From a virus, in the IMG/VR virus record IMGVR_UViG_3300043570_002336, positions 1 to 64,000 of that record: DNA of 64,000 nt; one strand, written 5' to 3'. Of the stretch, positions 2,786 to 49,602 are shown piece by piece. How positions within the stretch are numbered: the stretch's first letter is position 1; each line of letters begins with the position of its first letter. The position numbers were made by a program, and so were the translations under genes. A model generated the notes under the pieces. That model worked only from the letters and a program-made list of their open reading frames with translations. It ran no database searches and was not told where the DNA came from.

Positions 2786-3358
2786 TTACTCCAGGTGCTT
2801 CTTAAGGTGCTGTAGGTACTCGTTGACGTTCTTCGTAATTTCGGCTTTCTGCTTGGCAGAATTATTATTCCAATCTTCTATCGTTCCGTCTTCGGTTACA
2901 AAAGTCATAGATTCGTTAATCTGCTCTTGAACCCATTGCTCAAGTCCTTGTGCCCAGGCCTGCATGTTGCCCTGCATCATCTGCTTTTCATACTCCTTGT
3001 AGAGGCCGGCTCTACGTAGACCGGCTTCCATATCAACGGTACAGTCAAAGCAGAAGCCATGGATTTTGTACATCTTCTTGGCTAGGTGATGATTCATTGA
3101 ACCACCGCAGGAAGGACAAGTTAACGGTATTTGAGTTAGCTTTTTAGCAGCATCTAACTTGGTAACATTTTGTTTAAGACCGTTTTTAATGGTCCATGCT
3201 CTACCATCTTCTTCCCAGACGTCACCTTCGCTATGCTTTTCTTTCGCTTTCTCGTACCCGGAACCAACCATGGTACGGGATGTAAAGTTTTTAGAAATAA
3301 TGTTTCGGGCCCGATTTACAGCCCTTTCATCAAATTCTTTCTTCAGATGGCTTGACAT
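2786..3358 (-). CDS. Zinc-finger phage protein (190 aa)
   Basis: An N-terminal basic helix is followed by EGDVWEEDGRAWTIKNG near residues 45-60, then a two-pair zinc ribbon (CPSCGG near 80 and FCFDC near 102). The C-terminal third is helical and polar. I remember closely similar unnamed proteins in other T4-like phages of aquatic bacteria. The ATG is preceded by GGTT, the favoured start context here, and lies 29 bases inside the HAD gene. Nucleic-acid binding is likely. The precise role is unknown. Confidence 0.7.
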   Translation of the reverse strand: MSSHLKKEFDERAVNRARNIISKNFTSRTMVGSGYEKAKEKHSEGDVWEEDGRAWTIKNGLKQNVTKLDAAKKLTQIPLTCPSCGGSMNHHLAKKMYKIHGFCFDCTVDMEAGLRRAGLYKEYEKQMMQGNMQAWAQGLEQWVQEQINESMTFVTEDGTIEDWNNNSAKQKAEITKNVNEYLQHLKKHLE

Positions 3359-3890
3359 AACCTAACTTTTCTAATCTTATAATAACGTTGGATGGGTCTC
3401 CGTTTTCTGGATGGTAGATTCCTACACCTCCTGCATCTATCCATCTCTGAATGGTATCTTCCCTATCGTCGATTAGGATATCATCGGGTCCTGTACACTC
3501 TAGATGCTTTTCTTTAGCCGGACGGAAGATGATCGGAGGAATAGGTTCTAATTCCCTATTTGCCCATTCTACCTTACCGTCTCTTGAAGACTGTTCTTCA
3601 GAGGGGGCAGTTAAGAGAGTTGGGTTAAAATCTCTAATGTGTTCCCATAGCTGTAGGCCGTGCGGGGTCCATTCCATTCCTTCCCAAAAGATCTGACCGA
3701 TAGGTGCAATGACGCTCCAGAAGCCTCCGTCACCTTTTTTCTCCTTGTACTCGTTTGGATGCATACCGAAGTAATGGTCAAAGCGGCCTACAAAATCCGT
3801 AAGCACGCCATCCATATCACAGAATAGTTTGCCTTTTGGTTTTGGATTTTGCTCCTCTTCAGTAAGTAGTAAGTCAGCTAACTTGCCCAT
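3330..3890 (-). CDS. HAD-superfamily phosphatase, 5'-nucleotidase-like, with prohead-type leader (186 aa)
   Basis: Residues 22-32 read LFCDMDGVLTD, the HAD motif I with nucleophile D25 and general acid D27. A TAPS segment near 95 fits motif II, and DILIDDREDTIQRW near 138-151 fits motif IV. The layout resembles small 5'(3')-deoxyribonucleotidases. The extra N-terminus MGKLADLLLTEEEQ matches the LLxTE leaders of neighbours and is not part of the HAD fold, which suggests that the enzyme is delivered in the head. The substrate, probably a nucleotide, is inferred. Confidence 0.8.
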   Translation of the reverse strand: MGKLADLLLTEEEQNPKPKGKLFCDMDGVLTDFVGRFDHYFGMHPNEYKEKKGDGGFWSVIAPIGQIFWEGMEWTPHGLQLWEHIRDFNPTLLTAPSEEQSSRDGKVEWANRELEPIPPIIFRPAKEKHLECTGPDDILIDDREDTIQRWIDAGGVGIYHPENGDPSNVIIRLEKLGYVKPSEERI

Positions 3891-3891
3891 T

Positions 3892-6747
3892 TTATTTTAA
3901 GTTTGGAATACCTCCGATTTGGGGAATTCTGCTCTTCCAAAGATCGTAAATTTTTTGCTTATTTGCAACTGTTATAATTTCACCCTGTACTAGGTCTTCT
4001 AGGTACTGGTCAACGGTTGACTGGAAGTCTTTCTTCTCGTACTTTGACTTTGTATGCAAGCCCTGGATGTTAGCATCTACTTCTTTAGGAAGCATGTAAT
4101 ACTTGTACCATATCTCCGGGTTCTGACGAATAGCTCTTCTTCTAGCTTCGTCCTTTCTCATCCACTTATCCGGGCGAACTTCTACCCCGGATTGGGTTAG
4201 GTGTTCGGTTTCGTGACGAATAAGATCGGTTAAGATTGGTTGGATTTGTTGAAGCATATTAGTCCCGTCAGCCGGATTAAAAGCTAGTATGATATCGATT
4301 TCTCCTTCATCGGAACCGGCTTCACCGTCGATGTGGAATTTGCCCGGTGCTACTTGGTCGGTTTGAGCAAATTTTAAACTTACCCCTACATTTACCGGCT
4401 TGCCGTCTTCTGTCTTAGTTCCTTTCTCGCTTTTGCTTGTAAACTCTCCCAGGTATGCTGATTGATATTCGTTGTAAAGCATAGCTCCTAAAGGAGACAT
4501 TCCGTATTTTTCAGCAAACTCTAAATCCTTTTTAGTAGGCTCTCTTTTGGTCTTAACGTTATATCCTTTTAGCTTTTTACCACTAATTAAGACATTAAGA
4601 GCATCGTTAACAGCTCTTCTAACGTCAGCAACGATTGAACGGTATTTGGTACCTTCTTCCAGGCTATCTTCCTTCTTAATCGAATCTTCGTACTCTCTCA
4701 TGAGCATGCTACCAAGGAAATGAGCTTCCTTTTCAATATCATTTAATGTAGAATCTTCCTGGGTGTTGGTAGTAGTAAAAGCTGGTAGACGATCTTCTAG
4801 GTTCTGCATGTGATGAATCATCTCATGGCAGAATGAACGCAGTACATCTTTAGGGTGACGTCCTGTTACATACAGCACGACTTCTTTCTTAGTAGGATCG
4901 TAGTAAGCAGTCCTACCAAAAACGTTAGCAGCGTTTTCTTCATCTTCTCTAGTTTTGATCTCCGGCAGCGGTAATACCGTCATACCCTTCTTAATCATAT
5001 GCTCTAGAATACCAGCGATATAAGGTACGTAGTTGATAGCTGCTGCAGTATCCTGGTATTCGTCGATAGGTTTCTGCTCGGGAGTGTAGTCAGCTGGTCC
5101 CATCGGTAGAGCTTTGTTGTAGTACATCGGGGTAATAACGATCGATTGACCGTTAAAGTCTACGATCACATCGTCCGGGGCAAGCTTCTGGAAGTATGCG
5201 GTAAGGTTTTGCATTTTCTGACGAATCTCAGAAGGTACTACGGCAATCGGTGCCATGGGAGTTCCCATGGTTACTTCAGAAGTTTCTTCTTCTTTCTTTT
5301 CTGCTTTTTCTTTTGTACCTTCTCCTAGGAAGCTGTTGAATACATCGTCGATGGCTTCTGCCATTTTGTACTCTGGGGTTGCTTTTAGGATTCCTAGTAC
5401 TGTTTTTTTATCGTCTGCTGAAAGTTCTTCAGGCATCCATTGACCTGCTTTTAGGTAGTCCATATCTGTTCTAATTGTAGTAGCAGATAGCTTTTCTTCG
5501 TTGATCGTTGACACAATTTTTAATTTTGCTCTATCGTAGAGATTATCCTTATTGAGCTGTAGAGCTTTAAACTTAGCTAGATCTGCCGGGTCAGTAGAGG
5601 AACCTACTAAGTAGTCTTGTTTTTTGTTAGCTTCGATTTCCTGGTAGATTGAAAGGATAGGGGTGACCGGTGCTATTTCAATTTCAGTGGGCACACCTAA
5701 ATACTTGGCATAGATCCCCCAGATATCTTTTGACTGCTGAGCTGTAATTATTTCTCCTTTTCTGATTGTACCACCGATGTAGATCTTAATTGAATCTACG
5801 TCCTTGGCTAGCTCTTTAGCGATGTGGAAGTGACCGCGGTGAGGGGGTTTGAATCCACCTCCGTAAAGTCCGATGGTGCTTTCTTCTCCTTCTGTTAGAG
5901 TTTGAGCAACTTGTGACAAAGCCTTCTCTTTATTATCTCCTTTAGGAGTACCTACTTCACCGGATTTAACCGATACCATCGAGCGGAAGATTCCTGCTAC
6001 GCGGTTCTTACTTCTAGGATTGGTAAGCGATCTTGTTATCTGGTCTAAAAGCTTTTCAAAGGGCTGATTAAGATCAAAATCCTTTAATAGGTTCTGTACG
6101 TCAGACCAGTTATTTGATTTCCAGATTTCCTCTCTAGCTACTTCTTTAAAGTTGTCTAGGGTTACTTTTCTGAGAGTTAGATTTACGCTAGAAAGGTTAA
6201 ATTCGTATTCCTGATTTGCTTCTAAGGGGGGTAGATTTTTAATTCCCATACGGGCGAATACTTCGGCCGGCTTCTGCTCTACTAATGCAGTCTTAACTAG
6301 TCCTAAGATTAGACCCTGCACTTCGGCAGGTAGGTCTAAAAACGAGTTCTTAAACTGGTGTTCGGTTTCAGAAAGAGAAACCATAACATCAACTTGAATA
6401 GTTTCGCCCGGTGCTCCTTTGATTGGGTAGAGTACCGAGATAATCTCTCCGGAGTTATAAAATTTCTTACCTTTATACCGATCGCTTTGGAAGGGCATAA
6501 TTAGAGAGTCTGGCATCTTAGATACCGTGTCGATGATTGCTTGCTTGGCAAGCTTCTTATCACCGTATTCAAAGGTACTAATAACGTCTAAGTCTCCGAA
6601 GTCGGCTTTAGTGCCAGCTTTAACGCTTCCAGATAGACTTGCAGCTTTGTAACCAGGGATTTTCTTGAGAACTTTATTCTCAAAATCATTAAACGTATCT
6701 TGGACGTCTTGCTTTTTAATTCTATTTCCTCCGGCTACACCGCTCAT
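3892..6747 (-). CDS. Multi-enzyme polyprotein: Pol-beta NTase, NMNAT-like NTase and two HExxH metallopeptidase-like domains (951 aa)
   Basis: Domain order: residues about 20-180, a Pol-beta-type nucleotidyltransferase (GS at 40-41, DLD at 52-54, VDV at 119-121). Residues about 290-440, an HIGH-type nucleotidyltransferase related to NMNAT (GGGFKPPHRGH at 296-306, SATTIR at 421-426). Residues about 500-690, a zincin-like domain (HEMIHH at 641-646). Residues about 700-950, a second zincin-like domain (HETEH at 845-849). Each junction carries LxEG: LTEG at 284-287, LGEG at 474-477 and LEEG at 696-699, like prohead-protease cut sites. I infer a head-packaged polyprotein processed into four pieces. 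It lies between another nucleotidyltransferase and the HAD gene. Substrates are unknown. Confidence 0.75.
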   Translation of the reverse strand: MSGVAGGNRIKKQDVQDTFNDFENKVLKKIPGYKAASLSGSVKAGTKADFGDLDVISTFEYGDKKLAKQAIIDTVSKMPDSLIMPFQSDRYKGKKFYNSGEIISVLYPIKGAPGETIQVDVMVSLSETEHQFKNSFLDLPAEVQGLILGLVKTALVEQKPAEVFARMGIKNLPPLEANQEYEFNLSSVNLTLRKVTLDNFKEVAREEIWKSNNWSDVQNLLKDFDLNQPFEKLLDQITRSLTNPRSKNRVAGIFRSMVSVKSGEVGTPKGDNKEKALSQVAQTLTEGEESTIGLYGGGFKPPHRGHFHIAKELAKDVDSIKIYIGGTIRKGEIITAQQSKDIWGIYAKYLGVPTEIEIAPVTPILSIYQEIEANKKQDYLVGSSTDPADLAKFKALQLNKDNLYDRAKLKIVSTINEEKLSATTIRTDMDYLKAGQWMPEELSADDKKTVLGILKATPEYKMAEAIDDVFNSFLGEGTKEKAEKKEEETSEVTMGTPMAPIAVVPSEIRQKMQNLTAYFQKLAPDDVIVDFNGQSIVITPMYYNKALPMGPADYTPEQKPIDEYQDTAAAINYVPYIAGILEHMIKKGMTVLPLPEIKTREDEENAANVFGRTAYYDPTKKEVVLYVTGRHPKDVLRSFCHEMIHHMQNLEDRLPAFTTTNTQEDSTLNDIEKEAHFLGSMLMREYEDSIKKEDSLEEGTKYRSIVADVRRAVNDALNVLISGKKLKGYNVKTKREPTKKDLEFAEKYGMSPLGAMLYNEYQSAYLGEFTSKSEKGTKTEDGKPVNVGVSLKFAQTDQVAPGKFHIDGEAGSDEGEIDIILAFNPADGTNMLQQIQPILTDLIRHETEHLTQSGVEVRPDKWMRKDEARRRAIRQNPEIWYKYYMLPKEVDANIQGLHTKSKYEKKDFQSTVDQYLEDLVQGEIITVANKQKIYDLWKSRIPQIGGIPNLK

Positions 6748-7655
6748 TGTACTTTATATTTTACTAAATTAGAATCGTCTGGAAGGAACTTACCTTTGAG
6801 CTGCAGTCTCTCCTGATTTGCAATCCAGTAGTCCTGTAAATCTTCCGGAATGTCGGCTCTAGTGCTGTCAAGAATCTTGAGGTAGATATCGTAGACCTTA
6901 TTTAGATCCTGCTCACTTAGATTGTTTTTGAGAGCCTCCATAACACTGAAGTAGTTCTCTAGAATCTCGGAAGTAAAGTCTGCTTTGTAGAGCTTGTTTA
7001 AAAGCTCGATAGCTTCAGTTGGAGATTTAGCTTCTATTTCCTGGGTGTCTCTATTCTTAACTCCGTAGTTGTGAGAGAAGATATATCCTTTATTTGCAAA
7101 TAGGGCAACCAGTAACTGGGTACGGTGCAATCCTTTCACATTTCCAGAATAAACGCTAGAGTAGTAAGCAAATTTAAGCCAGTCAACATCCCCGACATTT
7201 ATATCGATTTGAACGTTGCTATCTAGCTGCTCTCCTGCTTCGTTGTATTGAGGAGCTTGCAGGAATAATGCACCCGAAGCTGAACCTTTTACGTCGACAG
7301 CAAGGTCGGTATCAGCATCTTGGATCTTTTCAGCAATAGCAACAATCACAGCTCTTTTCATAAGCTGCTCTTCCGAGGCTGTTCTTGATCTCTTTTTGAA
7401 GAGTTCGAAAAGCTCCTGGACGTGCTGCTGATCTAGACCCCAGTCCTGAATCTTATCAAAGCTTTTATCGGAAATCGCTAAATCGATATCTCCAGAAACC
7501 TCCTTCTTACCTACAGATCCTAGGGTCTGCATTTGACGGAAGTGAGGTTCTGCTTGAGGAAATAATCTCTTGAATTCTTTTAAAAAGTTTAAGAGGGTAG
7601 GCTTGATGTCCTCCCTCTTAATCTTGTCTGTGGTTCCGAATACGTTTCCTCCCAT
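6744..7655 (-). CDS. Pol-beta-type nucleotidyltransferase (303 aa)
   Basis: It has the GS...DxD signature: LGSVGKKEVSGDIDLAI near residues 45-61, with the third acidic residue probably in VQIDINVGDVDW near 148-159. The C-terminal half is helical (about 215-270). It overlaps the polyprotein start by four bases, so two Pol-beta-like enzymes are made in tandem. There is no LxE leader, unlike many neighbours. Family members transfer NMP to RNA, protein or small molecules. Which applies here cannot be told. Confidence 0.75.
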   Translation of the reverse strand: MGGNVFGTTDKIKREDIKPTLLNFLKEFKRLFPQAEPHFRQMQTLGSVGKKEVSGDIDLAISDKSFDKIQDWGLDQQHVQELFELFKKRSRTASEEQLMKRAVIVAIAEKIQDADTDLAVDVKGSASGALFLQAPQYNEAGEQLDSNVQIDINVGDVDWLKFAYYSSVYSGNVKGLHRTQLLVALFANKGYIFSHNYGVKNRDTQEIEAKSPTEAIELLNKLYKADFTSEILENYFSVMEALKNNLSEQDLNKVYDIYLKILDSTRADIPEDLQDYWIANQERLQLKGKFLPDDSNLVKYKVQ

Positions 7656-9459: not shown

Positions 9460-9999
9460 TTAATAGTCGATTAATTTTATCTGACCGTCGGCGGTTGCCA
9501 TTACGTTGTTATCATCTCCGTACATATCAACATCTTCAGGGTCGACTCCGGCTTGAATCATTTCCTGTCTTGCACCGATAAAGACCTTCTGTAGGTACGG
9601 GGATAGATTTGAAAGTATGCTCTTATCTCCTTCCATAAAGAACTCATCTAATATACGAACGTTCTTTTTAATTTCCTGAGAGTATTCTTGCGGTAGTGGT
9701 TCTAAGTTCTCAACCTGGTACCAGCCTCCTTTTTCCATCTCCACTGCCTTGCCAACGTTTGCCAGGTATTTAAAGCTCTTACCTTGAGCCTTGAGCATAG
9801 CCTGCATTTCGATGTCATCCTGAGTAATTTTTACTAGGTAGCCTTCTTTAGGTTCGTATCCGAATTCCGGCACAGGATTGGGTGCATTATAAACAACCCC
9901 ATGAGATCCTCCCCCTACATAGGTAACTCCGGCTTTCTTAAAAGCATCTTTGATTTTAGAGTAAGTGCTCTCAGTAAGAAGGGCTTGTATTAGTTTCAT
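9460..9999 (-). CDS. Small kinase-like protein with prohead-type leader (179 aa)
   Basis: MKLIQALLTESTYSKI is a leader of the MKLIxxLLxE type. After it come GGGSHGVVYNA near residues 29-39 (Gly-rich-loop-like), LVKIT near 55 (candidate Lys), and at the C-terminus MYGDDNNVMAT then GQIKLIDY (catalytic-loop-like D...N and DFG-like D). This order suggests a minimal protein-kinase or aminoglycoside-phosphotransferase fold of about 165 residues, shorter than usual. It is inferred to be packaged and injected. Catalytic activity is unproven. It overlaps the next gene by four bases. Confidence 0.6.
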   Translation of the reverse strand: MKLIQALLTESTYSKIKDAFKKAGVTYVGGGSHGVVYNAPNPVPEFGYEPKEGYLVKITQDDIEMQAMLKAQGKSFKYLANVGKAVEMEKGGWYQVENLEPLPQEYSQEIKKNVRILDEFFMEGDKSILSNLSPYLQKVFIGARQEMIQAGVDPEDVDMYGDDNNVMATADGQIKLIDY

Positions 10000-27555: not shown

Positions 27556-27973
27556 CTTCTACTGCTAAAATATTATAAATCTTTTGGATTCGTGCACATC
27601 TTTCATACTCTTCAATACCCTCATAGTGATCTCTTAACTCCTCCATAGCAAAGGCAATTTCCTGAGGAGTAAATTTTCTAGCCTCTACTATATGCTCATA
27701 TCTACTCTCATCGAATCTTTCTAGGTAAGTGAATACTCTATCAAAGTAAGTCTTTCGCACGGTCTGCTCAATTGATTGATATCTCTCTCCGTATTTTTTA
27801 CGGTACATCTCATTAATGATAAAGAAGTTCTCAACGCATTTGATCACGGTACCGAAAATGATGTACGGATGCTGGGTGTAATCGATCACCGCCTTAGTAA
27901 ACCCCTCCTTACTAAGGTCATCCTGATCATCGTAATCGAAGATCGATAGAAAGGCAGGTGGTAGAGCTTTCAC
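27545..27973 (-). CDS. Unidentified helical protein (142 aa)
   Basis: Helical, charged, begins MKALPPAFLSIFDYDDQDDL. No motif recognised. The ATG overlaps the stop of the leader-bearing gene upstream by four bases, so the two are translated together. Confidence 0.6.
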   Translation of the reverse strand: MKALPPAFLSIFDYDDQDDLSKEGFTKAVIDYTQHPYIIFGTVIKCVENFFIINEMYRKKYGERYQSIEQTVRKTYFDRVFTYLERFDESRYEHIVEARKFTPQEIAFAMEELRDHYEGIEEYERCARIQKIYNILAVEVAS

Positions 27974-28353
27974 GCTGATAGTTTAGTTGTAACAGCACCG
28001 TAGCGGCGAAATACCTCTACCGGGTCCGGGGAGATATTCCAAAGCTTACCTAGTTTCTCTCTTACGGCCGGGGTCTGAAGGATTGCTTTGAAGATTTTTT
28101 CATCGTAGAAAAATTCTCCCGTAGTCTCGATATACCTAAAGTGTAAATCCGAAGGCTCTTCATAAGCTATGGTTAAATCCATTTTTAGATCGGGATCGTG
28201 GCCTTTTTTGATAACTAGTCTAGGATGAACAAATCTAGCTAAGGCCTCGTACCCTTTCTCAAACTCCATAGCCGAAGTAGCATCATCAAGGTAAGTTTTA
28301 CCGTCAAAGATACCGCTTTTAGATTCCGAAAGAAGAGCAGAGATAAGCTTCAT
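27970..28353 (-). CDS. Protein with prohead-type leader (127 aa)
   Basis: MKLISALLSESKSGIFDGKT is nearly the same leader as in the kinase-like gene at 9460-9999 (MKLIQALLTES), but the bodies are unrelated. The remaining 115 residues have mixed charge with no motif. A late-type box (CTATTTATAT) lies 8 bases before the ATG, consistent with a late-made, head-packaged protein. Confidence 0.65.
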   Translation of the reverse strand: MKLISALLSESKSGIFDGKTYLDDATSAMEFEKGYEALARFVHPRLVIKKGHDPDLKMDLTIAYEEPSDLHFRYIETTGEFFYDEKIFKAILQTPAVREKLGKLWNISPDPVEVFRRYGAVTTKLSA

Positions 28354-30980: not shown

Positions 30981-31457
30981 CTATTTTTCTAAAAGTGCTC
31001 CGTAGATTTGAGCATCGATGAAGTTGATGATATCTGCTCTATCAAATCCTTCTTCCTGCAAATCAAAAGCCAAACTCTTAACCACAGATTTCAAAATCGC
31101 AACATCAGCAATTCGAACCAATCCATCCATTCGTTCATATGTGTCATCTACACCATTGAACCCTTTTAACTCAATGATATAGCGTGGGTAATTATAACCC
31201 TGTGTATCTACTAGAAACGTTCTACCTTCACTTTCAAATAAGTAAAACTGTTGGTCACCATCTAGGACTTCAATATCCATTAGATCTGCATACCAATCTA
31301 TTTGGAGAATAGGAAAAGATAAAATTGTATCTTTTATTTCACCATCCAACTCACACCACTCAGTTTCATTTGTTTTATACAAATAATTTTCTTTGCGGCT
31401 GTAGTCTAGATTAACCAATTTCTTGTAAATTCCTTCATTCAATTCTTTTACTTTCAT
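30981..31457 (-). CDS. Accessory protein of unknown family (158 aa)
   Basis: Alpha/beta, acidic, beginning MKVKELNEGIYKKLVNLDYS. It has FLVDTQGYNYPRYIIELKGF in the middle and an amphipathic C-terminal helix. No known motif. Base composition is slightly more AT-rich than the tail genes. Confidence 0.6.
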   Translation of the reverse strand: MKVKELNEGIYKKLVNLDYSRKENYLYKTNETEWCELDGEIKDTILSFPILQIDWYADLMDIEVLDGDQQFYLFESEGRTFLVDTQGYNYPRYIIELKGFNGVDDTYERMDGLVRIADVAILKSVVKSLAFDLQEEGFDRADIINFIDAQIYGALLEK

Positions 31458-40112: not shown

Positions 40113-41291
40113 CTATAAGTTAATTAAACTATTCTGATATTCGTTCATCTTACTAATTTCTAAAGACATACTACTTACGGTATATGTACCTGGGTTTCCA
40201 TTCATTTGGATAATCTCCGGTAACTGTTGCAGTACTTGAAAGTCATATTCAGTAAAAGTATTTTTATCCACAGTTAGTATGATTTCATTTTGTAAGGTAT
40301 CGAACGGAGTTGTTTTGATTTTCTCTGCAAGATTATATTGAGTGTTATGCTGTTCTTTATCCAAGTAGTGAGTAGTTAGTACCTGCATCTCATCATCGAT
40401 CAGAATTGTTGAACACCAGGGTTCAAGAAGCTCTAATAATTCACTGGTACAATTTGTGACTTTAATACCAATGTCGTACTTAGGAGATACAATTGGTTTC
40501 ATCATACTATCATGTTTTACAAAATGTCCCCACTTCCGAATAAAATTACGAGTAGATCTCATATTTTGAGCTTCCCACTCGCTACTATTTTTACCTGGAG
40601 TTGTCAAGGTAGGATTAAACCTAGACCCTCTGCAGGTCATATGGTATACGTGTCCTTCCCAAGTCTGCACAAATTTAACTCCGTCTAGGTGAAAGCGGTT
40701 AAAAATATCGGAGTCTTCTTTTGATTGCGGAGCATATAAAGGGTCGTGTCCTCCAATCTTCTGGAAGTCTTTGCGGTAGAAAGCCCAGGGAGCAAAAACA
40801 CCTTCTGTAGCTTGCTGCACCTCTAGCTTACTATACCAGTTTAAGAAAGCCTCTTCGTTAAACTCTTCAGGCTCAGTACCAAAGTTAGCTAAAACCTTTT
40901 CTGGTCCTGGAGGGTGTAGTGGTGGCTCAATTCGAGTTAGAGATACAATTACACCTGGCTTAATATGTTTCTCAATAGCAGAAATAGCACCTGGACATAA
41001 GTACATATCAGCATGGTAGATCATCGCTACATCTGCAGTTGCTACATTATTAATTAAACGGTCGTATAAAATAGTATGCCCTAATCTTTCCGGACCTTGG
41101 TTACGAATCCATTTAAAGTTAGGATCTTTTTTCTCCGTCTCTACACACCATGCCCACGTTCCGTCTGTACTAGCATCGTCAGCTACACAAATTTCAATCT
41201 CGTGCTCTCCTTGATTTTTTCTAATTGATTCATAAGACCACTTAAGGTACTTAAGATTATTACGGCTTGGCTGTATTAAGCTAATTTTCAT
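40113..41291 (-). CDS. Family-2-like (GT-A) glycosyltransferase (392 aa)
   Basis: MKISLIQPSRNNLKYLKWSY begins a GT-A Rossmann-like fold, with CVADDASTDGTWAW near residue 35 and the DxD-type metal site in MIYHADMYLCPGA near 90-102. EDSDIFNRFHLDG near 190 fits the acceptor ED motif. The last 100 residues are an extra domain. It is the last gene of the 16-kb sugar cluster and overlaps the epimerase gene by four bases. The substrate is unknown. Confidence 0.85.
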   Translation of the reverse strand: MKISLIQPSRNNLKYLKWSYESIRKNQGEHEIEICVADDASTDGTWAWCVETEKKDPNFKWIRNQGPERLGHTILYDRLINNVATADVAMIYHADMYLCPGAISAIEKHIKPGVIVSLTRIEPPLHPPGPEKVLANFGTEPEEFNEEAFLNWYSKLEVQQATEGVFAPWAFYRKDFQKIGGHDPLYAPQSKEDSDIFNRFHLDGVKFVQTWEGHVYHMTCRGSRFNPTLTTPGKNSSEWEAQNMRSTRNFIRKWGHFVKHDSMMKPIVSPKYDIGIKVTNCTSELLELLEPWCSTILIDDEMQVLTTHYLDKEQHNTQYNLAEKIKTTPFDTLQNEIILTVDKNTFTEYDFQVLQQLPEIIQMNGNPGTYTVSSMSLEISKMNEYQNSLINL

Positions 41292-42127
41292 TTAATAACT
41301 TCTTTTAGGTAATCTGTAAGGTTGCGGGTAGGTTTCCATCCTAGAACTTCTCTAGCAGTATTATCTGTATTCAGGGTAGTTAAGGCTTCGCCTGGGCGTG
41401 CTGGGAAATACTCGGCAGTCTGTTGGAACATTTGTAGTACTTCGTTTACAGAGTAATTTTTACCTCTTCCCAGCTCAAATTCGTATCCGTAAGTCTGCTT
41501 GTACATAACTAGTGTTAGAGCATCAACAATATCATCGACGTGTGTGAAGTCTCTGCGTTGTTCTCCATCGCCATAAATTACGAACTTCTCTTGCTTGTAC
41601 CAACTATTAATCCATCTACCAATTAAAGTTGTATAACCTCCTTCTGTTAATTGATTAGGTCCGTAAACGTTGTAAAACCTCGCAATTGAAGCTTTTAGTT
41701 GGTAGTGTTGCTGGTATAGTTTGATTATATCTTCTCCTAAATCTTTTGAAAAAGTGTAAGGATTTTTGTACCTTCCACTATGCTTAGAAGATGAACCTGC
41801 ATACACAACGGGTACTCCTGATTTAGCACACCAATCTACTAACCTCATTGTACCTAGTGCATTAACTTCAAAATAGTCTTGAGGCTTTTCAAATGAAGGT
41901 TGAATACGAGCAATGGCAGCCATATGGAAAACAAACTCAGGCTTGATCCAATCGTAGCTGGTGATATTTCTGATATCATAGTTCAGGTACTCTGCTCCGT
42001 CTTGGTGATTGCTCTCCAGGCCAGTGCTGTAATTATCAATAGAAACTACTTCATGACCTTCTTCAAGAAGTCTCTTGATTAAATTTGTACCAACAAATCC
42101 TGCTCCTCCTGTTACTAAAACTTTCAT
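41288..42127 (-). CDS. NAD-dependent sugar epimerase/dehydratase, extended SDR (279 aa)
   Basis: GGAGFVG at residues 7-13 is the NAD-binding loop. YTFSK near 130 is the YxxxK catalytic pair and the GSSSKHSG segment just before it supplies Ser. RFYNVYGP near 155 is typical of GalE-type enzymes. It would convert one nucleotide sugar to another for the neighbouring transferases. One-base overlap with the gene upstream. Confidence 0.85.
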   Translation of the reverse strand: MKVLVTGGAGFVGTNLIKRLLEEGHEVVSIDNYSTGLESNHQDGAEYLNYDIRNITSYDWIKPEFVFHMAAIARIQPSFEKPQDYFEVNALGTMRLVDWCAKSGVPVVYAGSSSKHSGRYKNPYTFSKDLGEDIIKLYQQHYQLKASIARFYNVYGPNQLTEGGYTTLIGRWINSWYKQEKFVIYGDGEQRRDFTHVDDIVDALTLVMYKQTYGYEFELGRGKNYSVNEVLQMFQQTAEYFPARPGEALTTLNTDNTAREVLGWKPTRNLTDYLKEVIK

Positions 42128-43059
42128 TACAATACTTCTTTAATAGATTCAAATACCTTAGAGTAATCTCGATAACCTCTCTTAACTATTTCGTCTAAGG
42201 TATCAACTACAGGTACTACCTTTGCTTTAGATAATTTATTGAAGTAAGATTCTCCTTCAAAATAACCCGGTCTAATATCTTTAGAAGTGTTAACGTAAAT
42301 AATAACAGGTTTGTTAAAGTAGCTGCAAAGTATGCTTGAGCCTCCACCCATAGATATAAATCCTTCGGCACTAGAGTATATTGCTAACTGAGCTTCATTG
42401 TATGTACCTCCTACCTGGTTAACAATATCATCGAATAGGTATACATTTTCAAAGTATTCAGTAAGCTGATAATCAGTAATTACTCCTTGACCTTCTACAT
42501 TAGCTAAGATATCTCTATTCTGTAGCTCATTAGGATCGGTAGCAAACTCTGTATTACGAGGTCGTTTATAGATAATGTTATAACCTTTCTCAGTTAAAAG
42601 ATTAAACATTATATACAGACTCTCTATATCAAAGTACCCAATAGGTGTCTGCCCGTGTTCTAAGTTAAACCTATTTGAGATAATAACATAGTTACTCAAA
42701 GCAGGTGTATCTTTCTTGTAATACTTCTCAGCATAAGGAGGTGCTACCCATTGAGAGTAATCTAACCATCCGTTGGCTTGCTTCTGTTCTTCTTCAGTAA
42801 GTAGGCTATAGTCTTTCCCGAAAATAGCTAGAGCATTATGATGTATCCAGCTGTTAGGTAGATTCTGTACTCCGTTAGAGGAATTATCTACAGACCTAGT
42901 TGTATACTTCTCTTCTACTTCGTCACAAAACCAGTAGAAAGGTTTCATTCCTTTGCTTGTTATTACCTTAACATACTCTCCTTGCTCTTTAAGCCAGTAC
43001 GCATAAGGAGCTGCACATACAAGTTCATAGCCAAACTCTGGGTTTAGGTCAACTATCAT
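42127..43059 (-). CDS. Probable GT-B-type glycosyltransferase (310 aa)
   Basis: MIVDLNPEFGYELVCAAPYA opens a Rossmann half. The C-terminal half has ISMGGGSSILCSYFNKPVII, the GGG..S and loop pattern of GT-B donors (ADP-heptose or fucosyltransferase-like families). Overlaps the reductase gene by 11 bases. The family is uncertain. Confidence 0.6.
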   Translation of the reverse strand: MIVDLNPEFGYELVCAAPYAYWLKEQGEYVKVITSKGMKPFYWFCDEVEEKYTTRSVDNSSNGVQNLPNSWIHHNALAIFGKDYSLLTEEEQKQANGWLDYSQWVAPPYAEKYYKKDTPALSNYVIISNRFNLEHGQTPIGYFDIESLYIMFNLLTEKGYNIIYKRPRNTEFATDPNELQNRDILANVEGQGVITDYQLTEYFENVYLFDDIVNQVGGTYNEAQLAIYSSAEGFISMGGGSSILCSYFNKPVIIYVNTSKDIRPGYFEGESYFNKLSKAKVVPVVDTLDEIVKRGYRDYSKVFESIKEVL

Positions 43060-43768
43060 AATAGTATTCTTTTAGCTCAATGAGCTGCTCTTTAATTGAT
43101 TTTGTTTTTATCTCTCCTACGAGGCATTTATTTACTTCTACTGAAGAGTTTGGTACGATTTCAATATCTTTACTAAATACTTCTTTAATCAAAGATAGTA
43201 AATCAAATTTAGAGAGGCAAGTACTTTCAATAGTATTTTCTACTTTGTAGCTATCCCAATCCTGCATTAGTTTATAACATTGTTTAGCCCATTCTAAAGT
43301 TGTAATGCCGCTCCACATAGCTTTGGTGTAGCCTCCTACTGAGTTCTCGCTATTTAAAAACCATTCAAGTAAACTAACTTTAGAGTCTAATTCAGGTCCT
43401 ATGATAGATGTTTTGAGTATCTTAGTACGTGTTCCTTTTTCAATAATAAAGTCTCTAGCTTTTCTTTTAGATACGCCGTAAACATCTTCGTCTACTTCAC
43501 AATCAGTTCCAGGGTGTATAACTCTAGTATTTGCTAGAATATCTAACCAGGTAGGAAGATCTTCGTTGATAGAAAAGTCTTTAGTCCGTTGAGGAATAGC
43601 TCCAATACAGTTAATAATATACTCTCCTTTAAAGGAAGTTACTGCATCAGCAAAATCAGGAGTTAAGTAGCGGAAAGGAGTAACAGTAACTGTAACTCCA
43701 TTATTAGAGAGGTACTCGGAAACCATATGTCCAAGCATGCCTTTATGCCCTAGCACTAAAACGTTCAT
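43049..43768 (-). CDS. RmlD-like sugar reductase (SDR, 239 aa)
   Basis: MNVLVLGHKGMLGHMVSEYL is an RmlD/WbjC-type N-terminus (GxxGxLG). YGVSKRKARDF near 118 is the YxxxK pair and the INCIGAIP segment fits the family. With the dehydratase next door it would form a dehydration-reduction pair that makes a deoxy or 6-deoxy-amino nucleotide sugar, perhaps a FucNAc or rhamnose-type sugar. ATGA overlap upstream. Confidence 0.75.
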   Translation of the reverse strand: MNVLVLGHKGMLGHMVSEYLSNNGVTVTVTPFRYLTPDFADAVTSFKGEYIINCIGAIPQRTKDFSINEDLPTWLDILANTRVIHPGTDCEVDEDVYGVSKRKARDFIIEKGTRTKILKTSIIGPELDSKVSLLEWFLNSENSVGGYTKAMWSGITTLEWAKQCYKLMQDWDSYKVENTIESTCLSKFDLLSLIKEVFSKDIEIVPNSSVEVNKCLVGEIKTKSIKEQLIELKEYYYDS

Positions 43769-44703
43769 TGAAAGTAATTATAGTGTTGTAGAATATCTTC
43801 AAGTTCCTGCTTACTTACTGCTACTTGATCGCTTGTAAATTCTTCCCAGCTTACTTGTCTGTCTGAGATGTCTTTGTAGTGCATGTAGTAAGTATCGTTG
43901 TCCTTGTTGTAGAACGTACGAGGTCTTTCCTCCTTAGATACCATCATTTCATGTAGCTTCTCTGAGATGCGTGGTGTGCCGAGTTTATATTCTAATCCAA
44001 ACTTTTCAGCATAAATTTCAAATAGATCTCTTACCTTAAAAGCCTTTAAATTAGGTATAACATTATAACCAGTTTCCTGTAGTCCTGCTTCTATAAGGTC
44101 GATAGCTTGCTCGATATCGATCATAAAGCGAGTCATCTCAGGAGAGTACAGAGTAAGTTTATAACCTTTCTTAATTGCATCCCACATCAAAGGAATAATC
44201 GAACCGGTTGAGTTTAGTACGTTACCATAGATAGCAGTTGAAAGCTTAACGTTAGACTTCTCTGCGTTTACAATAAAAGCTTCTCCTGCTACAAACTTCA
44301 TAGCACCGTACAGGGTTGTAGCTGCTCTAGATTTATCTGAAGAGATAAAGCAAGCTGCTTTAAAGTTATTCTCTTCTGCTACTCTTCTAGAATTAATAGC
44401 TCCATCTACAATCACTCGTACTCCTTCTTCTACATTCTGATCTACAGCTTCAATCTGTTTTAAAGATGCAGCAAAAATCCCAATAGTATGTCCGGCGGAA
44501 GCTCTTCTAAGCAAGTCGTAGTTGCGAACGTCTCCTACGACGCAATTAATGTTTGGGAACTCTTTTTTAAGGTAGTAGTGCTTTGCTTCGTCTCTAGAGT
44601 ACACTGTTATTTCATTATCAGTGTAATACCTCTCGACAAGATTTCGGCCCAGGTACCCTGCTCCGCCGGTGATAAAAATTTTTTCACCTTTCATAACCTT
44701 CAA
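43765..44703 (-). CDS. Sugar 4,6-dehydratase-like SDR (PseB/FnlA type, 312 aa)
   Basis: ITGGAGYLGRNL near residue 10 is the NAD loop. SSDKSRAATTLYGAMKFVAG near 120 has the Ser-Asp-Lys and YxxxK motifs of UDP-GlcNAc 4,6-dehydratases. It should generate a 4-keto-6-deoxy sugar, the branch point for several unusual sugars. GGTTATGAAAGG suggests a start at 44694. A CTATTTATAA box lies 48 bases upstream, inside the upstream gene. Confidence 0.8.
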   Translation of the reverse strand: MKVMKGEKIFITGGAGYLGRNLVERYYTDNEITVYSRDEAKHYYLKKEFPNINCVVGDVRNYDLLRRASAGHTIGIFAASLKQIEAVDQNVEEGVRVIVDGAINSRRVAEENNFKAACFISSDKSRAATTLYGAMKFVAGEAFIVNAEKSNVKLSTAIYGNVLNSTGSIIPLMWDAIKKGYKLTLYSPEMTRFMIDIEQAIDLIEAGLQETGYNVIPNLKAFKVRDLFEIYAEKFGLEYKLGTPRISEKLHEMMVSKEERPRTFYNKDNDTYYMHYKDISDRQVSWEEFTSDQVAVSKQELEDILQHYNYFQ

Positions 44704-45589
44704 AATATTTTAGATTTTCTGTAAAAGACATAACAGGATTTACTCCACTATTATAAATAGGTTTAACAAATGTCTGTTCATCGTGATCAGGAAGACGGCC
44801 CCACTTGCTGTTAAATTTGTTGATGTTTGCTTGCTCTGCTAGCTGCTGTCTATCTGATTTAACTGCTAGGTTATCGTCCTTAAAGTGACTTCCTCTAGCA
44901 GAAAAATGGTATAGTACCGAAGTAGCTACCATTCTGAATTCAAAGCCTTCTAGCTGCATTCTTACAAACAGGTCCATATCCTCCCAACTAGAGGGAGCAA
45001 AGAGAGGATCGTTTCCTCCTATGTGGGTAAAGTCTTCTTTGCGGCAGAAGAAGCCAGCTCCTCCTCCTTTTCGAACTTCCGTACCTTTGTTAAGTTCGGA
45101 GAACTCTGAGGCAAACTGATCGAATAACTCTGTATTAAAGTTGTAATGGTACTCCCCAAAAACTTCTGATGGGAAGAAAACTGTACCGGGTCTGTAGTCC
45201 GGATCAGCTGGGAAGATTTTAGGTTGAATTCTAAACGAAGATGCGATCAGCCTGCTGTTATTATTTTCAAATAGCTTTAATAACTCTAGGTCTTGATTAG
45301 GACCGATCCACATATCTGAGTGGATAATATTTACGAATTCAGTTTGAGCTTTGTCTACACAGAAGTTCATCCCACCGCCAATACCTTTAGGTTTGGTGTT
45401 GTGATCTATGTAGTACTCAATACCTACCTCACCTGCTTGAGCTTTCAACCATTCGTCTGTACCGTCTGTGCAATTTTCAGCATGTACAATAATAGGTTGA
45501 TCCTTATAGTATGCATTCTTTCTTACAGAAGCAACTGCTAGCTTAAGGTAGTTTAAGTTGTTGTTAGTGGAGATGCACGTGGTAATCAT
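44684..45589 (-). CDS. Family-2-like glycosyltransferase (301 aa)
   Basis: MITTCISTNNNLNYLKLAVA, then HAENCTDGTDEWLKA near 35 and the DxD-like VNIIHSDMWIGPN near 90. WEDMDLFVRMQLEGFEFRMV near 205 is the ED motif. It is clearly related to the transferase at 40113-41291 (same HADMY/HSDMW and acceptor layout). ATGs overlap by 20-26 bases at each end. Confidence 0.85.
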   Translation of the reverse strand: MITTCISTNNNLNYLKLAVASVRKNAYYKDQPIIVHAENCTDGTDEWLKAQAGEVGIEYYIDHNTKPKGIGGGMNFCVDKAQTEFVNIIHSDMWIGPNQDLELLKLFENNNSRLIASSFRIQPKIFPADPDYRPGTVFFPSEVFGEYHYNFNTELFDQFASEFSELNKGTEVRKGGGAGFFCRKEDFTHIGGNDPLFAPSSWEDMDLFVRMQLEGFEFRMVATSVLYHFSARGSHFKDDNLAVKSDRQQLAEQANINKFNSKWGRLPDHDEQTFVKPIYNSGVNPVMSFTENLKYFEGYER

Positions 45590-46310
45590 CGACTTCGTTT
45601 TCCCAGTTGATTAAAGGAGACATAAAATAAGTCTCTCCATGAGTTGAGTACCCGGGTATCGGGCTTATTAATACACGCTTGCGAGCGTTTAATTCCAAAA
45701 ACATAGAGAAGTCATAAGGATGGCCTGTAACTTTTCCACTCTCTGGATGTATGCCGTTTGTATACTTCCGTAGGATGTCTTCGTCTGCTTTTAATGTCTT
45801 TGCTTTAGCAGCAAAGGTCATAGTAGTTGAATTAGTAACCTTCCAGTGAGAGTAGCGAGATACAAATACACGAGTAATCTCAGGACCATCTTTACATAGT
45901 TTGTTTCCTCCATGTTCTGCTAGTACGTACTTATCTGGATGATCGTAAAGAGTAATGTACTGTACTCCTGTCTGAAAGATTTCTTCTAGAGCTTGTCTAG
46001 CTCCTGCTCTATGCAGGTAGTCATTTTCTACGAAGTATACTGTAGTGTCATCTTCTAGCTGAAGGGCTTGATCTAAAGCAAGATTGAATGTACCTGCTCC
46101 ATTACCTACAGAATGTCTTTGAATATTTTCAGCCGGTACATACTTGCAGATCATTTCAAAAGTCTCCTCTCCTATATTATCCGCAATTACAGTAATAGAG
46201 CTAGGATCGAAATGCTTTACAAAGTTTCGCAGGCAATTCTCATTATTAATATAAGGTGGTTTAATCTTATTATAACCTGCCTCAGATATTCTGTAGTATA
46301 TTTTAAGCAT
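45564..46310 (-). CDS. Glycosyltransferase-like protein (248 aa)
   Basis: The VYFVENDYLHRAGARQAL segment near residue 90 looks like a DxD-containing donor site. The N-terminal half has SSITVIADNIGEETF and the C-terminal half a HPYDFSMFLELNAR acceptor-like part. It overlaps its neighbours by 8-26 bases, consistent with one operon. The exact family is not clear. Confidence 0.6.
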   Translation of the reverse strand: MLKIYYRISEAGYNKIKPPYINNENCLRNFVKHFDPSSITVIADNIGEETFEMICKYVPAENIQRHSVGNGAGTFNLALDQALQLEDDTTVYFVENDYLHRAGARQALEEIFQTGVQYITLYDHPDKYVLAEHGGNKLCKDGPEITRVFVSRYSHWKVTNSTTMTFAAKAKTLKADEDILRKYTNGIHPESGKVTGHPYDFSMFLELNARKRVLISPIPGYSTHGETYFMSPLINWENEVDDYHVHLH

Positions 46311-47265
46311 CTTTAAAAACGTCCTGCCAGGTGTAGGACTTGTAGTTAGGGTTGAATAAATTGTTGGTATTGGTTCTGCAATATTCGTTAGCTAATTTAT
46401 ACCAGTTATGAGATTTTCTCTTATTATCGATATCCACGCTTTCAAAAGATTGCTCTCCGGCAATGTAGTTTCTCTTCTGAGGATGTTTTCTATTGTGTAC
46501 TACTAGCAAATTCCTAAAATGGTATTGAGGAGTAGTAGGGAGTAACTGATGCAGTACGTGCATGAACGCTGTATCTTCGTGAATAAAGAAAACAGAGGAA
46601 GGAATGTTAACTCCTGCTTTAATAACTTCTGAAGATATTACTAATCCGCATCCGTTAAATTTGTGCGGACTAATAGTAGATACTTGTAGTTCTTCAATGT
46701 TGTTAAAGCTATTCATTTCCTCTTCTGACATAGTATAAGGAATGCTCCACCAATTTTCTGTATCTCCTTCTATAAAAGGTTTATTTGTAAATTCTGGATG
46801 CTCTAGTGGTTCCCAGCTTTTATCCCACATTTTACAAATACCGAATGTTGCAATGTACTTAGGAGTATGTTTTACATTCTGGTGTAGGTGATCTGTGACT
46901 ACAAATGCCTGCTTTGGGACTAACATATCTGATTCACCCCACACCAGTACATCAACCATAGTACAGTACTTGGCATTAAACTCTCTTCGATAATCTGCTA
47001 TAGTTATAAGAGTTTCATCAATATAAACATTTGCTGAGTATTCATTAAGTCTTTCCACTTGCTTCTCAAACTGAGATAGAATATAAGCTAACCTGTCTGG
47101 ATTATCTAATTGTTCTAGTTCTTGGTTAGTGGTGAGCTTAATATCGATAAGTACTTGGTCTTTATCGTATATGTCAACAGCTGCTAAAAGAGTATCAATA
47201 TACTCTGGAAGCATTTCAATTTCGTACCATTGTACTAGACAGCCAATTGCAAATTTAGTTTTCAT
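46303..47265 (-). CDS. Glycosyltransferase-like protein (320 aa)
   Basis: The DVLVWGESDMLVPKQAF segment near residue 110 resembles a metal-binding DxD, and VFFIHEDTAFMHVLH near 225 resembles an ED acceptor motif. The start FAIGCLVQWYEIEMLPEY has the layout of nucleotide-sugar transferases. Unclassified, probably GT-A. Confidence 0.6.
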   Translation of the reverse strand: MKTKFAIGCLVQWYEIEMLPEYIDTLLAAVDIYDKDQVLIDIKLTTNQELEQLDNPDRLAYILSQFEKQVERLNEYSANVYIDETLITIADYRREFNAKYCTMVDVLVWGESDMLVPKQAFVVTDHLHQNVKHTPKYIATFGICKMWDKSWEPLEHPEFTNKPFIEGDTENWWSIPYTMSEEEMNSFNNIEELQVSTISPHKFNGCGLVISSEVIKAGVNIPSSVFFIHEDTAFMHVLHQLLPTTPQYHFRNLLVVHNRKHPQKRNYIAGEQSFESVDIDNKRKSHNWYKLANEYCRTNTNNLFNPNYKSYTWQDVFKDA

Positions 47266-47992
47266 ATTGATCTCTGTATTTGCTCCAGGTCTGACTCATA
47301 AAATGAACACGGTGCTCTTTATCAAAGCCGTTAAAATGCCATACGTAACCGCAATCTACAAACATAAAATCGTTAAGAAGTTCTTTGCGATTTAAGTGAG
47401 TGAGATTCCATCTCTTATTAAGTAGAGTTACATCGTAGTCTAACTGCCGTGTAAGGTAGTTAACAGGTGTTTGATCTGTACCTTTGCGCAAAGTTGTCTG
47501 CAGGTTTGTTAACGTTTCTGCGTTATTATGCCAGAAATCTGTAATAGCAGTGCACAATTCTTTATGCTGTTTGTTTATTACAACAAATCCGCAGTTGTAA
47601 TAGTTGACCCAATCCAGCTTTACTTCTGGAAATAAGTGTTGGTAGCCTTCCAAGCTCTGCCATACCCAACCTACATTATCGTTATCGACACAGGCTGCTA
47701 GGTTGTGCTTAGTTTCATTAAAGAAATTAGGAGCATCCCAGTGTATCATCGTATCAATATCCACTAATGCTACTTGATCGTATTCAATATTATTTGTCTC
47801 TAGTATGTCTAAGACGTACCACCTCTGCCAGGTAGCTTTCATCTCAGTAGGATCTACTAGAGGTTGATCTAATACGATAAGTTCTACATCGTGTCGCTTA
47901 CACCAGTGCTGCCAGGTAGCTAAGCAGAACTGAGAATAGTTAACAGTGTCGTAATTAGTGTTAAGGTTTGTGATAAAAACAACGTTACGCAT
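47255..47992 (-). CDS. GT8-like nucleotide-sugar transferase (245 aa)
   Basis: The start is set at 47992 (MRNVVFITNLNTNYDTVNYS). An alternative ATG at 48025 has a promoter-like TATATTCA box directly before it. ALVDIDTMIHWDAPNFF near residue 80 is the DxD site and YNCGFVVINKQHKEL near 125 the family-typical loop. Overlap of eight bases with the gene upstream. Confidence 0.75.
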   Translation of the reverse strand: MRNVVFITNLNTNYDTVNYSQFCLATWQHWCKRHDVELIVLDQPLVDPTEMKATWQRWYVLDILETNNIEYDQVALVDIDTMIHWDAPNFFNETKHNLAACVDNDNVGWVWQSLEGYQHLFPEVKLDWVNYYNCGFVVINKQHKELCTAITDFWHNNAETLTNLQTTLRKGTDQTPVNYLTRQLDYDVTLLNKRWNLTHLNRKELLNDFMFVDCGYVWHFNGFDKEHRVHFMSQTWSKYRDQYEN

Positions 47993-48719
47993 ATGTGTAG
48001 TTTGCAGAGAGAGTTCTGTATTCATTGAATATACGAACTAAATCGTTATCTTCAAAGAACTTGAACATATTTCCTTCAGCATTACGGCAATATTCATTAA
48101 GAGATAAGTCACTCTTTTCCTGCTTGTAGGTCTGAGCAGAGTAATGTATGACTGGACACCAGTCAACAACTCCTACTTTCCAGTTGTTCTGTTCACAAAC
48201 AATACCTGAGTATACATCCTGTCCCCAGCCGTAGATCAGCTGATTAGAAAACTGACTAATCTTCTCAACTAAGTCTCTATGCATTAAAGGTGCTTGAAAG
48301 TCTACCCACTTAACATCACGTACTTCGGTAGCAGACCAGCAATGAACATACTTCCATTTGCACTGGTTCTTTTGAGGCTGTAGTACACAAGGAGAAACAA
48401 TTTTGTAATCTTTTTCGAACATAGCTTTGCGAAGAGATTTAACAAAGTTACCTCCATGTAGAATTAAATCGTTATTGAGAGAAAGCAGACTGTCGTATTC
48501 TTTGTTCTCTAAAAACAATTGCATAGCAAGGTTTAAAGCTCCCCCAAAGTAAACATTCTGTCCTGTCTCGTGAGTAGTGTATTTGCTTTTACCTTCCGGT
48601 GTAGAACCGTTATCTATAATGATTAGGTCATAAGAATCATCTCTATGTGCTTCTAGAGATTCAAAAAGCTGATCGGTTAGATCAGGAAGATTGTGGTTGT
48701 AAATAACTGCTAGTGTCAT
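47985..48719 (-). CDS. Family-2-like glycosyltransferase (244 aa)
   Basis: LIIIDNGSTPEGKSKY near residue 33 and LLSLNNDLILHGGNF near 80 (donor DxD replaced by NND, as in rhamnosyl-type transferases). The layout resembles rhamnosyltransferase-like GT2 enzymes. It overlaps both neighbours by four to eight bases. Confidence 0.8.
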   Translation of the reverse strand: MTLAVIYNHNLPDLTDQLFESLEAHRDDSYDLIIIDNGSTPEGKSKYTTHETGQNVYFGGALNLAMQLFLENKEYDSLLSLNNDLILHGGNFVKSLRKAMFEKDYKIVSPCVLQPQKNQCKWKYVHCWSATEVRDVKWVDFQAPLMHRDLVEKISQFSNQLIYGWGQDVYSGIVCEQNNWKVGVVDWCPVIHYSAQTYKQEKSDLSLNEYCRNAEGNMFKFFEDNDLVRIFNEYRTLSANYTYA

Positions 48720-49600
48720 AATGCTTTAATATAGTTAGGATGAGTATAGATCTCCAACGGGTGATCTATATTAATTCGAGTTATATAACGTAGAGGATCA
48801 GCTTCTAATCTATCCGGCCTGATAATAATATTGTCCTGGTTGTTATGCTTAGCCTGCTCTAATGCAGACTTAAAAGCATTTCTGTAAGCTTCTGGGCGTA
48901 TGAGTTGTCTAAATCTAAGATCTTTATACTTACCGGGTCTCCACCAGGCATAGTGAAATACGTATCTTGGAAAGATTGTTAGTTGAGGGTATTTCTGACT
49001 TGTGAAGTTCTTTACAACCTCTCTGTAGTATTCCCAGGTTCCAAACTTAATAACAATTCTTCTTTTATGAATGCGGGAAGGATCTAAACTTTCTGCCTCT
49101 ATGTAGTATTGATTCTCCATAAAGTCTAAGTACGGAGCTTGAAGACCTTCATCAGGATTTAAATTGGAGATAAGTTCTTCTAGTAAGTCGGTATCATTTT
49201 TGTGAAAGAATACATCTCCTTCGAGAGGAAATATCAAATCTCCTTCTTGTACAACTACACCTAATTCTTCAAAGTTACTAACTGAATGTACGTAGCAGTC
49301 GTTAGCATCTATGGCTGAGTAGTCTACTGCATTCCAGGTAATTTGTATCTCGGGGTACTTTATTTGAGCTTCTTTTACAGCTGCTTGTACTACTTGCGTA
49401 TCCCAGGCTAGGTTAGTATCCTCGAAACAGAACTCTTTACGAAAGCTTTCATCTACTCCTCCTTTATTTTCAGGTCCTTTTGGGAATAGTCCTTCATTGT
49501 AAATAATGTGAGTAGGCTTTATAGTGTTTACAAGATTTTCAATCTGTAAGGCAGTAAAGTGCCCTTCACCAAAGCAAGGAATTATAACAATCCGCTTCAT
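48716..49600 (-). CDS. Glycosyltransferase-like protein (294 aa)
   Basis: The start is placed at 49600 (MKRIVIIPCFGEGHFTALQI), two bases after the epimerase stop. FPLEGDVFFHKNDTDLLEEL near residue 120 is a possible donor site with the EGD triad. The C-terminal half is Trp/Tyr-rich (FHYAWWRPGKYKDLRFRQL). Unclassified. Confidence 0.6.
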   Translation of the reverse strand: MKRIVIIPCFGEGHFTALQIENLVNTIKPTHIIYNEGLFPKGPENKGGVDESFRKEFCFEDTNLAWDTQVVQAAVKEAQIKYPEIQITWNAVDYSAIDANDCYVHSVSNFEELGVVVQEGDLIFPLEGDVFFHKNDTDLLEELISNLNPDEGLQAPYLDFMENQYYIEAESLDPSRIHKRRIVIKFGTWEYYREVVKNFTSQKYPQLTIFPRYVFHYAWWRPGKYKDLRFRQLIRPEAYRNAFKSALEQAKHNNQDNIIIRPDRLEADPLRYITRINIDHPLEIYTHPNYIKAL

Positions 49601-49602
49601 GT

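Follow-up and report, generated by a model that had tools for sequence, protein, structure and literature searches.

A putative phage polyprotein of four enzyme-like modules with conserved, predicted prohead-protease sites at its joints

Introduction

Four enzyme-like modules joined in one phage reading frame raise the question of whether the chain works as a whole or is a precursor that is taken apart and, if so, by which protease. The frame lies in a stretch of 64,000 nucleotides (the window) that belongs to a 95.8-kb viral record. A sequence-only reading had described a 951-residue protein with four such modules, separated by the short motifs LTEG, LGEG and LEEG (residues 284-287, 474-477 and 696-699), and had proposed that the prohead protease cuts it there. 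The reading frame agrees with this description and is on the minus strand. We have examined its modules, its relatives among viral contigs and its genomic surroundings. In what follows a slash within a motif marks the putative cut.

Results

Four modules in one reading frame

The reading frame and its modules are as follows:
3892..6747, minus strand: polyprotein reading frame, 951 aa (ATG at 6747, stop at 3892-3894)
5890..6747, minus strand: M1, residues 1-286, Pol-beta/X-family-like nucleotidyltransferase (Foldseek, AlphaFold2)
5320..5889, minus strand: M2, residues 287-476, NMNAT/cytidylyltransferase-like (profile matches, motifs, AlphaFold2)
4654..5319, minus strand: M3 including its linker, residues 477-698, zincin-like, metallopeptidase-like (alignment A3)
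3895..4653, minus strand: M4, residues 699-951, second zincin-like module (alignment A4, stand-alone genes)

The same intact frame is present in four viral contigs (L001-L004), one of which (L004, also G001) is the 173-kb contig IMGVR_UViG_3300042878_001497, where the protein is 100% identical. The module assignments rest on predicted fold and on motifs and are worded as "-like" for that reason. M1 carries a GS..DLD motif (residues 40-54) and its modelled fold resembles DNA polymerase lambda/beta (Foldseek, best E 1.8e-6); it gave only sub-threshold matches in Pfam and PDB profile searches, and a relative (L245) matched Pfam DNA_pol_B_palm at 2.8e-4, below the cut-off. Its C-terminal helix (residues 271-285, KEKALSQVAQTLTE) is read as a propeptide-like spacer. 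M2 belongs to the HIGH-superfamily NMNAT/cytidylyltransferase-like proteins (Pfam CTP_transf_like 0.0026, below the cut-off; NMNATs in the PDB profile search, up to 4.3e-5). It contains GGFKPPHRGH and SATTIR (421-426), that is, the (H/T)xGH and SxTxxR motifs of NadR/NadM-type NMNATs, and ends in a helix (458-473). M3 and M4 found no convincing sequence match in Pfam and PDB profile searches. Each has an HExxH motif and a downstream Glu (HEMIH 641-645 and Glu 674 in M3, HETEH 845-849 and Glu 889 in M4), kept in both module alignments.

Candidate cleavage sites lie in linkers

LxEG occurs in the 951-aa protein only three times, exactly at the junctions named by the sequence-only reading. At the second joint there are two candidates, and the position of the second of them (2b) is the conserved one in most relatives:
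5887..5898, minus strand: site 1, LTE/G, residues 284-287 (cut 286/287), between the folded cores of M1 and M2
5317..5328, minus strand: site 2a, LGE/G, residues 474-477 (cut 476/477), in the linker 473-503
5272..5283, minus strand: site 2b, candidate, TSE/V, residues 489-492 (cut 491/492), at the equivalent position in relatives
4651..4662, minus strand: site 3, LEE/G, residues 696-699 (cut 698/699), corresponding to the xE/G of M3-M4 fusions

Near relatives have LGE/S or LGE/L at site 2a. Site 2b directly precedes the conserved GTP start of M3 and is replaced in most relatives by [VI]KE/GSSGTP, VAE/V or VEE/V.

An AlphaFold2 model built with 81 sequences had a mean pLDDT of 82 and a pTM of 0.39, which suggests confident modules without a fixed mutual arrangement; M1, for instance, is mostly above 85 over residues 10-250. 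An earlier model from 9 sequences, with a mean pLDDT of 50, was set aside. In the model, site 1 is at the end of the helix 271-285, between two cores (block mean 67), sites 2a and 2b are within a disordered stretch (473-503, pLDDT below 50) and site 3 adjoins residues 693-696, also below 50. All three LxEG sites are thus predicted to fall within linkers or at their edges, and none inside a folded domain.

The joint motif is conserved among relatives

Three module searches of viral contigs yielded 134 non-redundant ORFs, about 88 of them multi-module. The architectures were M1-M2-M3-M4 (25), M2-M3-M4 (28), M1-M2-M3 (17), M2-M3 (9), M1-M2 (7) and M4 alone (34, including a few fragments or parts of other ORFs), plus others. 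LxE is a weak motif, the linkers are rich in Glu and the relatives cannot count as independent samples; nearly all of them chain into one group at 55% identity, so we claim no independent-sample statistics.

At the M1-M2 joint LxE was found in 48 of 50 fusions, mostly as LSE/A, LAE/A or LTE/A. The strict form [LIVM]xE[GAS] was present in 41 of these 50, against a mean of 9.0 (maximum 18) in 1000 shuffles of the same linkers with their composition kept; some fusions have D, E, N, Q, R or V at P1' instead of G, A or S. Joints hold the strict motif at 7.2 times the density of module cores (Fisher p 3e-59, a value that ignores the kinship of the relatives). Most proteins have [VI]KE/GSSGTP before M3, and directly before M4 stands xE/G in 53 of 54 M3-M4 fusions (MAEG, LNEG, LEEG, LKEG, VKEG and others), kept even where the preceding stretch has an unrelated origin, as it often does. 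The sites are therefore conserved among homologues, the exceptions to the canonical motif being two M1-M2 joints (L241, L253) and one M3-M4 joint (L018). M4 is missing from 30 proteins, two of which run into further modules; the other 28 end shortly after M3 (e.g. FRNWEDKIKNG), and [LIVMF]xE is absent from the tails of all 28.

Natural splits of the chain were also observed. In L064 (3008-5110 and 5064-5705) and in L065 the split falls before M4, and the M4 ORF has lost its site (VMRNNKY). In L198 (6137-7777 and 7782-9284) there are separate M1-M2 and M3-M4 genes, the second with LIEGASGTP before M3.

Stand-alone genes and inserted modules

M4 is found as a gene of its own behind a minimal leader, MKLKxLILE/G (MKLKxLILE/GMYDKL). 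Nearly all stand-alone M4 genes have a leader of 8-13 aa that ends in xE/G (once xE/S) at the position of the fused xE/G; examples are MKLKELILE, MKLTDLLNE and MISMKTLITE. Separate genes with LxE leaders, which the sequence-only reading had suggested looking for, thus exist for M4. The stand-alone M3 genes L049 and L096 open with a helix similar to those before the joints, and the M2-first polyproteins of the L170 lineage start with MNSLVKSLIQPLLE/A.

Of the 15 large inserts, 13 carry [LIVM]xE at each end; over 5000 shuffles the mean was 2.3 and the maximum 8. Modules therefore appear to enter at sites, each bringing a new site with it. The inserts include a RegB-like module between M2 and M3 (L013, L014, L040, L047; in L013 Pfam REGB_T4 at 2.6e-4, below the cut-off), a YunG-like one between M1 and M2 (L099), one of unknown type before M3 (L074, L206), and helical or zinc-ribbon inserts before M4 (L013, L016, L017, L041, L160, L170). 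Matches of the L170 protein to phiM12 and Melnitz as M3 were rejected; they actually correspond to its inserted RegB-like module. A short element, [DN]PQ.GKAAPYGSGY, is conserved in unrelated proteins of these phages (L020, L061, L068, L017, L106, L116 and others), usually just past xE/A or similar.

Genomic context, protease and capsid protein

Among named phages, Flavobacterium phage immuto (NC_055915; host Flavobacterium sp. LMO8) comes closest. Its homologue (YP_010114595.1), annotated as NMN adenylyltransferase only, shares 43% identity across 99% of the length and has TLAE/A, VVKE/G and VMAE/G at the joints before M2, M3 and M4. The immuto genes follow each other on one strand: tail genes, primase, exonuclease, a 302-aa nucleotidyltransferase-like ORF and the polyprotein, and downstream of it a 5'(3')-deoxyribonucleotidase, small genes, terminase, portal, Peptidase_S77 protease, core proteins and gp23. 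The minus strand of the window has the immuto order from the tail genes to the nucleotidase, with these immediate neighbours:
6744..7655, minus strand: upstream, 303-aa ORF, nucleotidyltransferase-like by motif, with no LxE leader (the immuto equivalent also adjoins the polyprotein)
3330..3890, minus strand: downstream, 5'(3')-deoxyribonucleotidase-like (PHROG 2643, E 2e-23), with the leader MGKLADLLLTE/E

Peptidase_S77 was found above the curated cut-off in 12 of 13 records and a Gp23-type capsid protein in 11 of 11. There was no S77 match in G007, a record with stand-alone M4 that may be a fragment. On the 173-kb contig that carries the identical polyprotein, a gene for a T4 gp21-type protease follows on the same strand, about 13 kb downstream. 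This protease has TITE/S near its start and SLNE/T near its end, and the gp23-type capsid protein of this contig has AKQIIKE/SNAT around residue 60, where T4 gp23 is cut (65 residues); the immuto capsid protein has the equivalent AKQIVSE/ANVT. These cuts are predicted by position. The immuto protease (gp070) and capsid protein match PF03420 (8.9e-35) and PF07068 (6e-84), respectively.

Within the first 30 aa a loose leader motif is present in 23 of the 71 window genes, against 11 expected, a signal that is weak alone and on which we do not rely. Leaders of the MK.xLLxE type were seen in the window genes at 104-316, 316-729, 716-937, 1836-2765, 3330-3890, 9460-9999, 27970-28353 and 30981-31457, whose products may also be packaged in the head. 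A scan of genome contigs for relatives found none, and a nucleotide search against phages gave no match. Elsewhere in the window, about 14 ORFs at 40113-55803 resemble glycosyltransferases, sugar epimerases and dehydratases (judged by eye), and the 515-aa protein encoded at 60967-62514 contains a long low-complexity stretch rich in Gly and Ser.

Discussion

How the chain would be processed

We consider it quite probable that a T4-superfamily phage makes this polyprotein as a precursor of injected internal-head proteins and that the S77 protease cuts it in the prohead. The idea of a prohead-protease polyprotein, first put forward in the sequence-only reading, gains strong support from the comparison with relatives, where the joint motif is conserved and M4 genes have leaders, and further support from the location of the motif in linkers and the presence of S77 and gp23 in the same phage. 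The four modules would be translated as a single chain and taken into the prohead core, where the gp21-type protease (Peptidase_S77) would cut after the Glu of [L/I/V/M]xE at the joints, at 286/287, at 476/477 and/or 491/492, and at 698/699. M1, M2, M3 and M4 would be freed and then injected with the DNA; we infer this role of S77, as well as the packaging and injection of the parts. In front of each downstream module would stand a short propeptide, often helical and closed by xE, comparable to the capsid-targeting propeptide of T4 internal proteins; new modules would be gained by insertion at the sites, and equal amounts of the parts would follow from such a polyprotein. The chain itself starts with MSGVAGG..., with no LxE, and so has no capsid-targeting leader of the kind found on gp21-processed internal head proteins. 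Since some stand-alone M3 genes start with a similar helix, the helices before the joints may guide the leaderless chain into the core. No virion proteomics for any polyprotein relative was found in the open-licence literature, and the paper on Baltic Flavobacterium phages reports none.

Two of the modules could themselves be the protease, M3 and M4 cutting the chain before packaging or after injection as in a self-processing polyvalent protein. Both have HExxH with a conserved downstream Glu, and such a role has been argued for zincins of polyvalent proteins, citing P1 DdrB, in the text of PMC5512222. We judge self-processing unlikely because the sites remain in proteins that have no zincin: complete M1-M2 proteins keep them (L244, LSE/S; L232, LAE/S), and the zincin-less NMNAT-ligase protein of Microcystis phage Mel-JY01 has IIAE/GG. 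Furthermore, a leadered stand-alone M4 would need to trim itself, and presumed substrates of the head protease in the same phage carry this very motif. Cutting by another protease, of host or phage, in the cytoplasm, with products used during infection and not packaged, would agree with the missing N-terminal leader of the window polyprotein and with the adjoining replication genes (primase and exonuclease). Against this, the stand-alone M4 leaders have the form known from packaged T4 proteins, and the immuto gene has tail genes on one side and head genes on the other, all on one strand. Cytoplasmic processing is, in our opinion, extremely unlikely.

It is also conceivable that nothing is cut, the LxE motifs being flexible linkers or parts of the M2, M3 and M4 folds in a chain that works, or is injected, whole. 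Cleavage of the polyprotein is a prediction from sequence, the linkers are Glu-rich, the xE/G ahead of M4 could owe its conservation to a place in the M4 fold, and the N4 virion RNA polymerase is packaged unprocessed (PMC5512222). However, the same motif stands ahead of unrelated modules and in low-confidence linkers of the model, and shuffled linkers of equal composition show it far less often. The M3-ending proteins without a site, together with the leadered stand-alone M4, make an uncut chain very unlikely in our view.

Comparison with known systems

With internal proteins IPI-III and Alt of T4 the proposed system would share (I/L)xE sites, a Peptidase_S77 prohead protease and injected enzymes, injection being in our case a proposal. 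T4 gp21 cuts the injected enzyme Alt at both ends, ITE-6 and LTE-619, and the capsid-targeting propeptides of T4 internal proteins have 10-20 residues (PMC5694885), the short form seen in the stand-alone M4 leaders. As in gp21-processed ejection proteins, (L/I)xE is found at the predicted product boundaries in phages with S77 and gp23-type genes. Unlike IPI-III and Alt, which give one product each, one chain would here yield four or more enzymes, and its first module has no N-terminal leader.

The polyvalent proteins (Iyer et al. 2017, PMC5512222) are likewise large, multidomain and presumed injected, with nucleotidyltransferase and zincin-like domains and modular shuffling, and the proteins described here also combine conflict-type domains, at least two per polypeptide, that are shuffled among phages. 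The difference is in processing, credited there mainly to zincin domains or to a C-terminal assemblin-like peptidase; the excerpts of that paper do not mention a separate protease of gp21 type that would cut at LxE joints (PMC5512222). The ejection proteins of phiKZ and SPN3US, with S80-type prohead proteases and SxE/AxE sites, are comparable in that many head proteins are injected after the prohead protease has removed their propeptides, some of which have several sites (PMC5694885). The reported cuts remove propeptides, and a multi-enzyme polyprotein was not found in the parts of that article on these phages (PMC5694885).

What appears new is the proposed serial cutting of a polyprotein, set against T4 internal proteins with propeptides and polyvalent proteins with a proposed zincin self-processing, as far as these sources describe them. 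We found no description of a polyprotein cut serially by a prohead protease in open-licence papers.

Wider occurrence and meaning

Three phages with stand-alone M4 have a second kind of long LxE protein (L313:915-3911, minus strand; L314:611-3631, plus strand; and L315). Their leaders (MGNLIKEWVK..xE) are MGNLIKEWVKSVIVE/S, MGNLIKEWVRGILVE/E and MGNLIKEWVKEILTE/D, followed by an NMNAT-like domain, then ILE/G, LLE/G or ISE/A and an unknown module, after which two of the three have LNE/D or LDE/D and a zincin. The final module is ligase-like (xE/GGAYGHM, KTDG motif), in L315 (G007) with an intein-like insertion after the ligase lysine (EK/CVYGD ... VHN/TDGQ, the slashes here marking the ends of the insertion). 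In a 344-kb phage, L019:5424-11420 encodes a 1999-aa protein that combines WG repeats, M3 and parts resembling zinc fingers and nucleotidyltransferases, and that has several LNE/G or INE/G sites. Together, these proteins make the design look wider than a single gene.

We lean towards the view that several lineages of large tailed phages have modular effector polyproteins, of at least two kinds (M1-M2-M3-M4; NMNAT, unknown, zincin, ligase), in which cassettes are swapped at prohead-protease sites and maturation releases an injected set in fixed ratio. The most speculative part, a guess, is that the set is a kit for the first minutes, directed against host defence or serving nucleotide/NAD and RNA metabolism; that M3 and M4 act on host proteins is equally a guess.

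Prohead proteases are known for trimming propeptides and digesting the scaffold. If the view of modular effector polyproteins is true, they would also free several enzymes from polyproteins, and the polyprotein strategy of viruses would be at work in DNA phages. The rule of [LIVM]xE before a module would predict packaged phage proteins and the mature starts of injected enzymes, a prediction testable in a cultured phage, Flavobacterium phage immuto. Recurrent module swapping would give these phages a changing arsenal of injected enzymes (nucleotidyltransferase, NMNAT-like, RegB-like, zincins and ligase-like).
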